Assembly: GCF_013394795.1 (NCBI RefSeq) | Contig: NZ_JABXYU010000001.1 | Location: forward strand, 992,001-1,056,000 | Length of the DNA: 64,000 bases | Direction of reading: 5' to 3' | Origin: Leptotrichia sp. oral taxon 223 | GTDB taxonomy: Bacteria > Fusobacteriota > Fusobacteriia > Fusobacteriales > Leptotrichiaceae | In this document: one piece after another, positions 31,790 to 34,678 of the stretch | Layout of the letters: each line of letters opens with the position of its first letter | How positions within the stretch are numbered: the first letter of the stretch is position 1 | Position numbers and translations under genes: made by a program | Notes under the pieces: model-generated | Databases searched by the model: none | Told to the model about the DNA's origin: nothing | The model's input: the letters and a program-made list of their open reading frames with translations, nothing else

Positions 31790-33208
31790 TTATATATCAA
31801 ATACAATAGATTTAACTCTTGTCATGCTTTCTATGCTATATTTTATCCCTTGAACTCCTGCTCCTGAACCTTTAATTCCTAAGAACGGAAAACTGTCAGG
31901 CCCTCTTTGAGTTTTATTATTTATATGTACTGTTCCTACTTCCAGTTTTTCAGCGATTTCAAATGCCAATGGGAAATTTTTTGTAAATACTGCTGACTGC
32001 AGTCCATATTCTGATTTATTTGCAATTTCTACTGCTTCATCCACAGATTTTACTCTGATAATTGGCAATACTGGTCCAAATGGCTCTTCCCACGCAATTC
32101 TCATATCAGTTGTCACATTGTCAAAAACTACTGGCCATATTAAGTTTTTCTCTCTTTTTACTGTTGTCAATGCTTTTGCACCTTTTTCCTGAGCATCTTT
32201 TATCAGTCCTTCAATAAAGTCTGCTGACGGAGTGTCAATTACTGTTGTAATATCAGCGTTGTCAAAGGGATCTCCCACAGTTAATTTTTCAACTTCCGCT
32301 TTTATCAAGTTAGCCAATTTATCTGCAACAGAGTCCATTACAAGCACTCTTTTAATTGCAGTACATCTTTGTCCAGAATAGCTGAATGCTCCTGCCACTA
32401 TATTTTTTGCGGCTTTTTCCAAATCAGCGTCCTCCAATACGATTCCAGCGTCTTTTCCACCTAATTCAAGCATAATTGGACGCATTCCAGCAAGTTTTCC
32501 AATTTTTTTGCCAATTGGCGTGCTTCCTGTAAAGTTTATAAAGTTCACTTCCTTATGTTCAATCAGATAATCTCCAATTTCAGAACCTTTTCCAGTTACA
32601 GAGTTAAACACTCCTGCCGGAATTCCAGCTTCTGCAAACACTTGTGTCAATAATAGTCCACTAATTGAACCTTGTGTAGGTGGCTTGAAAATTACTACGT
32701 TTCCTCCTATTAACGCTGGTGCGATTTTAGATGCCGACAAGTTTACTGGATAGTTAAATGGCGCAATTGCAAGCACAACACCAACTGGCTCTCTTTTTAC
32801 TGCCCCATATTTTCTCTTGCTTCCAGCTTCAAATCCACCGCCATTTACAAATTCGCCTGTGATTCTAAGCCCTTCTTCCGCAGCGTATCTAATCAAATCC
32901 GCAGTTCTCACAACTTCTGAAATAGCGGCCTTAATCCCTTTTGCTACTTCCTTTGCCAAATTTTCCCCGATTTTATCCTTATCTCTTTCAAGAATATCTG
33001 CAGCCTTATTCAAATAAGACGCTCTTTCCACAGCCGACAATGCTCTCCAGGCAGGCAAAGCCTTTCTGGCAGATTCCATAGCATAATCAACTTCTTCTCT
33101 TGACATGGCTGGCACAGTTCCAAGCTCTTCCCCATTTATAGGCGAATAAATAATTATTGTATTTTTAGAGTTTTTCCATTCTCCATTCACTAAATTTTGA
33201 TAATTCAT
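31790..33208 (-). CDS. gapN: NADP-dependent non-phosphorylating glyceraldehyde-3-phosphate dehydrogenase
   Basis: 472 residues from the ATG at 33208, which has AGGAGG 7 nt upstream; an in-frame TTG one codon earlier is not needed. It is an aldehyde dehydrogenase with LELGGKDAGIVLEDADL (catalytic Glu, near 250), SGQRCTAIKRVLV (catalytic Cys, near 284) and EEPFGPVLPI near 376. The GQRCTAIKR context is typical of GapN rather than general ALDHs. It oxidises glyceraldehyde-3-phosphate directly to 3-phosphoglycerate and yields NADPH, bypassing one ATP-forming step of glycolysis. Confidence 0.9.
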   Translation of the reverse strand: MNYQNLVNGEWKNSKNTIIIYSPINGEELGTVPAMSREEVDYAMESARKALPAWRALSAVERASYLNKAADILERDKDKIGENLAKEVAKGIKAAISEVVRTADLIRYAAEEGLRITGEFVNGGGFEAGSKRKYGAVKREPVGVVLAIAPFNYPVNLSASKIAPALIGGNVVIFKPPTQGSISGLLLTQVFAEAGIPAGVFNSVTGKGSEIGDYLIEHKEVNFINFTGSTPIGKKIGKLAGMRPIMLELGGKDAGIVLEDADLEKAAKNIVAGAFSYSGQRCTAIKRVLVMDSVADKLANLIKAEVEKLTVGDPFDNADITTVIDTPSADFIEGLIKDAQEKGAKALTTVKREKNLIWPVVFDNVTTDMRIAWEEPFGPVLPIIRVKSVDEAVEIANKSEYGLQSAVFTKNFPLAFEIAEKLEVGTVHINNKTQRGPDSFPFLGIKGSGAGVQGIKYSIESMTRVKSIVFDI

Positions 33209-33332
33209 CAAAATGCCTCCTTATTTTCATTTTTCTATATTTTATATTTTAGCATATATTTTTCATAATTAATATAGTTTTTTCACATATTTTTCATATT
33301 TTCCATTTTCTGAAAAAGTAATAGAAATTTGA

Positions 33333-33361
33333 TTGACTGATAAAATAGAATGTGATATAAC
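33333..33361 (+). promoter_or_regulatory. promoter of a small-RNA unit
   Basis: TTGACT, 17-nt spacer, TATAAC. It is followed only 56 nt later by a terminator hairpin, with no open reading frame of note between. Confidence 0.55.
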
Positions 33362-33366
33362 AAATG

Positions 33367-33450
33367 TACGTAAAAAACGGAGAAAAACATTCTGTATTAA
33401 CAAAAAGGTGAAAAAAATGCTCTACTCATAATTGATTAGAGTATTTTTTA
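33367..33450 (+). ncRNA. candidate small RNA of about 80 nt
   Basis: A promoter (33333-33361) and a terminator stem ATGCTCTA / TAGAGTAT (33417-33444) followed by TTTTT delimit a short transcript. The only ATG in it opens a four-codon frame. It lies directly in front of the small hydrophobic peptide gene and its terminator overlaps that gene's promoter. Confidence 0.45.
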
Positions 33451-33459
33451 TGTTATAAT
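33432..33459 (+). promoter_or_regulatory. promoter of the hydrophobic peptide gene
   Basis: TTGATT, 16-nt spacer, TATAAT. The -35 box lies in the stem-loop of the preceding terminator, so the two transcription units are interlocked. Confidence 0.6.
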
Positions 33460-33504
33460 ACTTTGGGCTTCACCGCCCAGTTGATACAGGATAGAGGTGA
33501 GATT

Positions 33505-33573
33505 GTGATAAGCGGAGATTTCATCTTTGTTGCTATTATAGCCATAATTTTCTATTTCTATTTTAGCAAATAA
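33505..33573 (+). CDS. 22-residue hydrophobic peptide, type I toxin-like
   Basis: GTG start with GAGGTGA 4-5 nt upstream. The peptide begins MISGDFIFVAIIAII and ends FYFYFSK: one membrane-spanning stretch with a single lysine at the end. Its message has its own promoter, a short 5' hairpin (TGGGC / GCCCA, 33474-33489), and a terminator 28 nt after the stop. AAGCGGAGATT at the start of the frame can pair with AATCTCCGTTT in the 3' untranslated part (33588-33598), giving an 11-bp long-range duplex. This layout fits type I toxin mRNAs. No family was recognised, and a KdpF-like small subunit is possible. Confidence 0.5.
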   Translation: MISGDFIFVAIIAIIFYFYFSK

Positions 33574-33600
33574 TAATTTTATCCTCCAATCTCCGTTTGC

Positions 33601-33628
33601 CCACAGATATAGTAATCTGTGGTTTTTT
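33601..33628 (+). terminator. terminator of the hydrophobic peptide mRNA
   Basis: A perfect 8-bp stem, CCACAGAT / ATCTGTGG, followed by TTTTTT. Confidence 0.8.
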
Positions 33629-33787: not shown

Positions 33788-34678
33788 ATGGAAAAGCAAT
33801 ATTTTGAAAGTTTTGATAATAAAAAAATCCCTTATTTATTTTTTGAGTCAAAAAGAGAAAAATATAAAAATAATGTCGTGATATTTCATGGGATGACAGA
33901 GCCTGTCGACAGATATGCCGAATTTGGGGAATTTTTGGCTTCCAACGGATACAATGTGTTTGTTATGGAAATTCGAGGGCACGGTGAACTGAAAAAGGAT
34001 GAAATCGGAGATTTTGGAAAAGGCGGGATAAAATCCGTATTTAAGGATATCGATAACTTTTTTGCAAAAATTTTGAGCAAAGTTGGAGCAACTCCAAGCA
34101 ACACAACGATTTTTGGACATAGCATGGGTTCTCTTATTGGAACACGATGGGGAATTAAAAATAAATATAAATATTTTATTTTATCAGGGTTTCCATTGAA
34201 AAATCAGCTGGTAGCCTTAGGCGGACATTTTGTCACTCTTCTGGAAAGAATGATTTTCAAAAAAGTTTCTGTATTTAATAAATTTATGGAAAAATGCAAC
34301 GCAAATTTTGAGCCAAATAAAACCAAATTTGACTGGCTGACAAGAGATGAAACTGAAAATAAAAAATACGAAGGCAGCAAACTTTGCGGATATCCTGTCA
34401 CACCAAAATTTTATTCCGGAATTTTTGCCACAATGGAATTTGTCAACAGAAATTACAAAAAATTAGACAAGCGTGCAAAAATATTAGCCGTTTACGGAAC
34501 TGACGATAAAGTGATCAACATTCCGTATATCAGTAAAATTTTTAATATGCTAAGAAAGAAAAAAAGAAGAATAAATATTCTTGAAAATAAGAACGGACGA
34601 CATGAATCCCTTAATGAAACAAATAAGCACGAAATTTATGATGAAATTTTAAAATGGCTAAATGCAAAGGATTTTTAA
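33788..34678 (+). CDS. alpha/beta hydrolase (lysophospholipase/monoacylglycerol lipase type)
   Basis: 296 residues. VVIFHGMTEPVDRYAEFGEF near residue 30 is the oxyanion region, TIFGHSMGSLIGTRWG near 108 holds the nucleophile serine, VYGTDDKVIN near 238 the acid and NGRHESLNE near 270 the histidine. The order and spacing match Hydrolase_4 (lysophospholipase) proteins. There is no signal peptide, so it is cytoplasmic. AGAAAGGAACATA precedes the ATG. It is followed by mreB with its own promoter. Confidence 0.85.
   Translation: MEKQYFESFDNKKIPYLFFESKREKYKNNVVIFHGMTEPVDRYAEFGEFLASNGYNVFVMEIRGHGELKKDEIGDFGKGGIKSVFKDIDNFFAKILSKVGATPSNTTIFGHSMGSLIGTRWGIKNKYKYFILSGFPLKNQLVALGGHFVTLLERMIFKKVSVFNKFMEKCNANFEPNKTKFDWLTRDETENKKYEGSKLCGYPVTPKFYSGIFATMEFVNRNYKKLDKRAKILAVYGTDDKVINIPYISKIFNMLRKKKRRINILENKNGRHESLNETNKHEIYDEILKWLNAKDF

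Follow-up and report, generated by a model that had tools for sequence, protein, structure and literature searches.

Does a plus-strand locus of about 300 bases in the genome of Leptotrichia sp. oral taxon 223 constitute a type I toxin-antitoxin system and, if so, where does its RNA antitoxin lie? The locus occupies positions 33333-33628 of the window, that is, the whole 64,000-nucleotide (nt) stretch analysed (contig NZ_JABXYU010000001.1, positions 992,001 to 1,056,000, of the Leptotrichia genome designated G000). A sequence-only reading had described two consecutive units, a small RNA followed by a short hydrophobic peptide on a structured mRNA, as resembling a type I locus; it had assigned no antisense partner and had named the upstream RNA as the nearest candidate. 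We can correct the former statement and support the latter: on sequence evidence, we identified the missing antitoxin as the upstream plus-strand RNA, whose pairing with the toxin mRNA co-varies, is cognate and is specific between copies. The locus is very probably a type I toxin-antitoxin unit with a co-directional upstream RNA antitoxin, belonging to an apparently undescribed family.

The upstream RNA and its predicted target in the toxin leader

The elements mapped in the window are the following:

33333..33361, plus strand: promoter of the antitoxin RNA, TTGACT-17-TATAAC (from sequence)
33367..33449, plus strand: predicted antitoxin small RNA, about 83 nt (fold and duplex energies; ends inferred)
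33389..33401, plus strand: antitoxin recognition block 1, AUUCUGUAUUAAC, pairing with 33480-33492 and co-varying with its target across paralogues
33407..33412, plus strand: antitoxin recognition block 2, GGUGAA, pairing with the loop at 33469-33474 (optimal duplex)
33412..33449, plus strand: intrinsic terminator of the antitoxin RNA, with the toxin -35 inside it (fold)
33432..33459, plus strand: toxin promoter, TTGATT (33432-33437), 16 base pairs (bp), TATAAT (33454-33459)
33465..33478, plus strand: 5' hairpin of the toxin mRNA, GGGC-UUCACC-GCCC (fold), its loop UUCACC being an antitoxin target
33480..33492, plus strand: stretch of the toxin leader targeted by the antitoxin, GUUGAUACAGGAU, largely free of pairing in the fold predicted for the complete mRNA
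33494..33499, plus strand: ribosome-binding site, GAGGTG (from sequence; aligned across the family)
33505..33573, plus strand: predicted toxin of 22 amino acids, GTG start, single hydrophobic span (105 bits with model R1)
33588..33598, plus strand: 3' untranslated region (UTR) segment, AATCTCCGTTT, forming 11 bp with the start-region segment AAGCGGAGATT (33510-33520)
33601..33628, plus strand: strong terminator of the toxin mRNA (terminator scan)

Block 1 and the leader form 13 consecutive pairs, two of them G-U, and the target lies immediately 5' of the ribosome-binding site. The duplex in the window has an energy of -24.2 kcal/mol, compared with -9.1 +/- 2.5 kcal/mol for dinucleotide shuffles of the RNA, none of which (0 of 3000) was as good; nor did any block as long as 13 bp arise in 3000 shuffles of the antitoxin RNA. 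Block 2 co-varies with the hairpin loop, the matched pairs being GGTGA/TCACC, TGTGAA/TTCACA, GGTCA/TGACC, TAGCG/CGCTA and TGCGA/TCGCA. The stem of the 5' hairpin also shows covariation, with 83% of cells paired and 15 double changes versus 6.0 in shuffled data, a value that none of 500 shuffles reached. At the level of sequence, it is nearly certain that RNA and mRNA pair and that this pairing has co-evolved.

Both transcripts are predicted to be highly structured. The upstream RNA folds at -18 kcal/mol (z score -4.4) and the toxin mRNA at -45.7 kcal/mol (z score -3.8), and in neither case was any of 200 shuffles as stable; the predicted mRNA fold leaves the hairpin loop open and the leader target mostly unpaired. 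The frame at 33505-33573 encodes VISGDFIFVAIIAIIFYFYFSK, a short peptide with a single hydrophobic span whose best 15-mer, FIFVAIIAIIFYFYF, reaches a hydropathy of 2.78; type I toxins in general likewise span the membrane once and usually have fewer than 60 residues. The toxin promoter has a TG preceding its -10 element, the -10 of the antitoxin promoter reads TATAAT in the orthologue of genome G011, and the terminator at 33601-33628 is the only one found when 600 bp were scanned (0.1 expected).

The description given by the sequence-only reading held well at this level. Its first unit is indeed a small RNA with promoter and terminator and no usable frame, the longest ATG-led frame having about 15 codons and no evident ribosome site, and the promoter of the second unit does lie within the terminator of the first, which contains the toxin -35. 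The promoter, 5' hairpin, 22-residue GTG-initiated peptide, ribosome site and terminator of the second unit were all found where it had placed them, as was the 11-bp duplex that joins the start region to the 3' UTR (AAGCGGAGATT/AATCTCCGTTT).

A family of units with matched recognition segments

We sought relatives with DNA and covariance-model searches and inspected over 60 loci. Each of the 13 Leptotrichia genomes examined has related loci, and one peptide class (class C) extends to other Leptotrichiaceae (genera g6, g9, g10 and g11); in Fusobacteriaceae, matches were found only at chance level (expectation values of about 0.001-0.01). The window genome holds 13 intact copies, four of which form one tandem array. 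Since the layout of the window locus recurs at more than 50 related loci, its elements are not a product of chance. The usual order comprises an antitoxin promoter, block 1, block 2 and a terminator overlapping the toxin promoter, interleaved in relatives as in the window, and then a 5' hairpin, leader, ribosome site, peptide of 19-24 residues, 3' UTR able to pair with the ribosome site, and terminator. Over 51 family loci the antitoxin promoter scores 10.4 of 12, versus 8.2 for shuffles, and across the family the toxin promoter scores 9.7 versus 7.3; the conserved promoter and terminator at the antitoxin RNA are those that separate transcription would be predicted to require. Toxin and antitoxin are co-directional in every intact locus read, whereas type I antitoxins are usually described as lying on the opposite strand, overlapping or nearby (PMC12390103; PMC4147584); the locus is hence a variant of the type I arrangement.

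The peptides fall into classes A (M-I-x-x-D, to which the toxin of the window belongs), B (NWDLTVL), C (DDIIRLLIILYIIYRITR, plus shorter MDNV/MENV forms), D (NQDW) and E (NWDFT), and their frame is under selection, with ratios of nonsynonymous to synonymous differences (pN/pS) of 0.06-0.48 across the family. Three sets of matches were set aside: those at thrC (L004, L015, L037, L038, L042) and at another gene (L016, L034, L035), which retain the terminator/promoter part only, the toxin being absent, and the 115-bp repeats of G038, which BLAST matched but which encode no such unit. As a separate observation, several Leptotrichia genomes (L004, L015, L037, L038, L040, L042) keep the small-RNA terminator and toxin promoter in front of a gene resembling that for threonine synthase, and this leftover promoter may now drive that gene.

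The recognition segments are wholly different between copies and matched within each copy. This is apparent from the RNA/leader pairs of L006 (TTATAATATGGC / GCCATGTTATAA), L030 (CTATAGTAAGT / ACTTACTATAG), L041 (CCATTTTGAGGT / ACCTCGAAATGG) and G041 (CTATAAATATTAATA / TATTAATATTTATAG). In a 23 x 23 matrix of non-redundant loci, the mean energy was -30.4 kcal/mol for cognate and -16.6 kcal/mol for non-cognate combinations; 22 of the 23 RNAs ranked their own mRNA first, a result not equalled in 100,000 permutations. With class C units added, 21 of 24 were ranked first, and within class C alone the figure was 13 of 19 non-redundant loci (p about 1e-5), with loci outside Leptotrichia following the cognate trend (G041, 15 bp; G017, 16 bp; G022; G042). 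The exchange of segments can be seen directly in the orthologue of genome G006, where the toxin frame is unchanged and the 3' UTR nearly so, while RNA and leader have been replaced by another matching pair, GTCTGTATTTGGTT / AACCAAATACGGAT (14 bp) plus TAGTGAA / TTCACTA (7 bp).

The 3' UTR would add an element of control within the message itself. At the 24 loci examined its sequence can pair with the ribosome site and start region, with energies of -14.8 to -36.1 kcal/mol, and the cognate match is stronger than swapped ones (p = 0.0004). As in type I systems, the structured mRNA would hide its ribosome site, judging from the minimum-free-energy fold and the 3' UTR pairing at these loci. Pairing of the 3' UTR with the leader alone gave no cognate signal (p 0.43), and pairing of the antitoxin with the 3' UTR was weak (p 0.01) and is not used as support. 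The hairpin loop was also considered as an anti-ribosome-site element; some class A loci fit, yet at the remaining loci the loop tracks the small RNA and not the ribosome site, and the idea was hence dropped.

Taken as a whole, these loci probably represent a hitherto unknown type I superfamily spanning the Leptotrichiaceae, in which a two-block code diversifies by swapping RNA and leader as one cassette, giving about 13 largely specific pairs in one genome.

Mobility, decay and the meaning of the pairing

The copies are scattered over many unrelated genomic contexts, and therefore the neighbour conserved next to the peptide, a transporter or kinase gene, that had been named as evidence for a structural subunit was not found. 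The flanking genes in the window are a minus-strand gene for an aldehyde dehydrogenase (31790-33211) and a plus-strand gene for an alpha/beta hydrolase (33788-34678). In G010, a close relative whose flanking hydrolase is 95% identical, antitoxin body and toxin were lost together in a deletion that left the antitoxin promoter as its scar. Intact units also occur, one on each, on two small plasmids carrying Mob_Pre and Rep genes, of 5,413 bp (L133, G006:C4; 5.4 kb) and 8,150 bp (L134, G003:C4; 8.2 kb). The toxin frame is broken in L054, L113, L118 and L162.

The tandem array of G000 (L125, G000:C1:1942800-1945600) is built of 292-bp units, four intact and two decayed. Its four toxins are near-identical in protein (pN/pS 0.06), and their RNA/leader segments are divergent. 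Unit 1 is the sole failure of the 23 x 23 matrix, its leader misfitting the adjoining RNA, and this failure is explained by the decayed unit 0 immediately before it, whose RNA matches that leader (17 bp, -21.8 kcal/mol). A leader that fits the RNA of another unit therefore implies action in trans. Specificity is good for units 3 and 4. The array is flanked by 84-nt inverted repeats, 99% complementary and 2575 nt apart, with which it possibly forms a mobile element.

Several loci record further rearrangement. L003 (G000:C1:590694) has lost its toxin, and the leader under antitoxin control is fused with the beginning of a gene for a larger membrane protein (MNKLIQNFNYK...), the RNA/leader pairing being retained (-25.8 kcal/mol); in effect, a different gene has naturally come under the control of the RNA. 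In its relatives L031, L033 and L039, a toxin remnant still lies between leader and membrane protein. L029 (G011:C21) has an RNA of the L002 type and a leader that fits the RNA left at L032 (G001), whose toxin is lost, and looks chimeric. The toxin loci L012 (G003) and L014 (G022, another genus) are nearly identical together with their flanks, which points to a recent transfer of a locus that was crippled beforehand.

Under the toxin-antitoxin interpretation, the toxin gene would yield a short structured mRNA encoding a 22-residue, single-span membrane peptide. In the full-length mRNA the 3' UTR would fold onto the ribosome site and start region, keeping the message silent or nearly so, while the hairpin loop would remain largely exposed, as would the leader that links the 5' hairpin with the ribosome site. 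The 83-nt RNA, expressed from its own promoter, would then bind the leader (13 bp) and the loop (6 bp) beside the ribosome site and block translation, the two-block pairing being predicted from energies; RNase III might plausibly cleave the duplex afterwards. Were the short-lived RNA lost, with a plasmid or by deletion, the mRNA would be freed and the peptide could damage the membrane. In this scheme we infer the transcript ends, the silencing, the RNA turnover and the toxicity. Its sequence-level basis consists of the two promoters and terminators, the cognate co-varying pairing, copy specificity, 3' UTR/start pairing, selection on the peptide, plasmid copies, arrays and decay. The initial proposal of a type I locus gains support from the pairing, the 3' UTR complementarity, the arrays, the plasmid copies and whole-unit loss, and the peptide itself is likely to be a toxin.

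A number of observations weigh against this interpretation. L012 and L014 retain an intact toxin frame although the RNA is deleted, with a weak ribosome site. L115 (G010:C12:60317, in a draft genome) has an intact toxin frame and promoter with unrelated sequence at the antitoxin position, and a genome-wide search of draft G010 revealed no RNA matching its leader; the search for trans-acting RNAs for such orphan toxins gave weak matches in G003 and G022. In the array, the RNA of unit 2 scores better on the leader of unit 1 than on its own. Among the class C loci that were not ranked first, L159 and L160 are weak, L160 having no recognisable RNA, and L162 has an in-frame stop in its toxin. Moreover, a non-toxic regulated small membrane protein would look much alike.

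This last point leads to the alternative that survives best, namely that the peptide acts as a small membrane regulator without toxicity, its synthesis being controlled by a linked small RNA, and that the locus is a regulatory module rather than a toxin-antitoxin pair. The peptide frame kept without the RNA at some loci fits this view, as does the fusion at L003 to an ordinary larger membrane protein, which shows that genes other than the toxin can fall under the RNA module. We nevertheless consider it unlikely, given that up to 13 intact pairs per genome, arrays and small-plasmid copies are typical of toxin-antitoxin systems and odd for a housekeeping regulator, and that presence or absence varies between close relatives, frames are broken at the four loci listed above and no neighbour is conserved. 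According to a further alternative, the upstream RNA is the 5' part of one long transcript, an attenuator or leader, and the complementarity forms an intramolecular stem; RNA and leader, with some 80 nt between them on one strand, could pair in cis, but between RNA and toxin lie a terminator and a second promoter, both conserved, and the trans action implied by array unit 1 also makes such read-through very improbable. That a minus-strand cis-antisense RNA is the true antitoxin and the upstream RNA incidental is the least probable reading: a weak promoter-like site exists at 33603-33576 on that strand (9 of 12), but across the family the minus-strand promoter is barely above shuffles (8.75 versus 8.16), with no conserved cis-antisense promoter, whereas both plus-strand promoters are clearly conserved, and the co-variation of upstream RNA and leader would be left unexplained.

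Relation to known systems

No match above cut-off was obtained in Pfam or NCBIfam for nine family peptides, tblastn of one class B peptide against plasmid and phage records was empty, and Rfam returned nothing at gathering score over the locus, with chance-level matches only at a relaxed threshold. Reports of type I systems are confined to Proteobacteria, Firmicutes and Tenericutes, together with one cyanobacterial case from 2025 (PMC12390103); no prior report in Leptotrichia, Fusobacterium or Fusobacteriota was found in the literature searched, the coverage of which is incomplete, and a word search of the F. nucleatum transcriptome paper found no type I system. The family is apparently large, fast-diversifying and undescribed. 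If the interpretation is true, it would be the first type I system in Fusobacteriota, with dozens of loci, and its co-directional order would escape searches for opposite-strand antitoxins. With many cognate pairs and swapped segments, RNA antitoxin specificity becomes directly testable by swaps and compensatory mutation; the roughly 13 pairs of one genome would be a natural set of orthogonal RNA switches, with possible uses as orthogonal RNA regulators and, in an oral genus that has received little study, as plasmid maintenance modules. Type III systems, in which an RNA of repeats binds a toxin that is a protein ribonuclease, are similar in gene order alone: the Leptotrichia RNA has no tandem short repeats, and the product is a hydrophobic peptide of 22 amino acids.

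The zorO/orzO and zorP/orzP pairs of E. coli O157:H7 are duplicated and show cognate specificity; ZorO has 29 amino acids, and the non-overlapping RNA has 18 nt of complementarity to the 5' UTR (PMC3919570). With this group, which includes tisB/istR-1, shoB/ohsC and dinQ/agrB, the Leptotrichia unit shares a small hydrophobic peptide, a non-overlapping RNA and limited 5' UTR pairing. The genes of that group are divergent (PMC4147584, PMC3919570), whereas the Leptotrichia RNA gene immediately precedes the toxin gene in the same direction, with the toxin -35 inside the terminator of the RNA; the Leptotrichia pairing, moreover, has two blocks, leader and hairpin loop, and Pfam and NCBIfam provide no link between the peptides. 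The timP/timR system of enterobacteria similarly has a toxin mRNA with a sequestered ribosome site and a small RNA acting on a structured leader (PMC11228461). It differs in that TimR disrupts the timP pseudoknot, and no sequence relation was found.

The tandem arrangement has its own parallels in E. coli, where ibs/sib forms tandem repeats of a short hydrophobic peptide with its own antitoxin RNA. The same is true of the tandem ldr/rdl repeats (PMC4147584). Unlike the Leptotrichia RNA, the antitoxins of both are on the opposite strand, and neither showed any relation in sequence to the Leptotrichia family. Sok, too, is encoded opposite its target. IsoA of Helicobacter is a cis-overlapping antisense RNA (PMC6733600), unlike the Leptotrichia RNA, which is on the same strand without overlap. 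What the family has in common with aapA/IsoA and hok/sok is multicopy peptide toxins with a ribosome site hidden by 5'-3' long-distance pairing, the 3' UTR/start-region pairing in Leptotrichia corresponding to the long-distance lock design of aapA/IsoA and hok (PMC6733600). In its proposed mechanism, the Leptotrichia unit would thus most resemble zorO/orzO combined with a 3' UTR lock of the aapA type.
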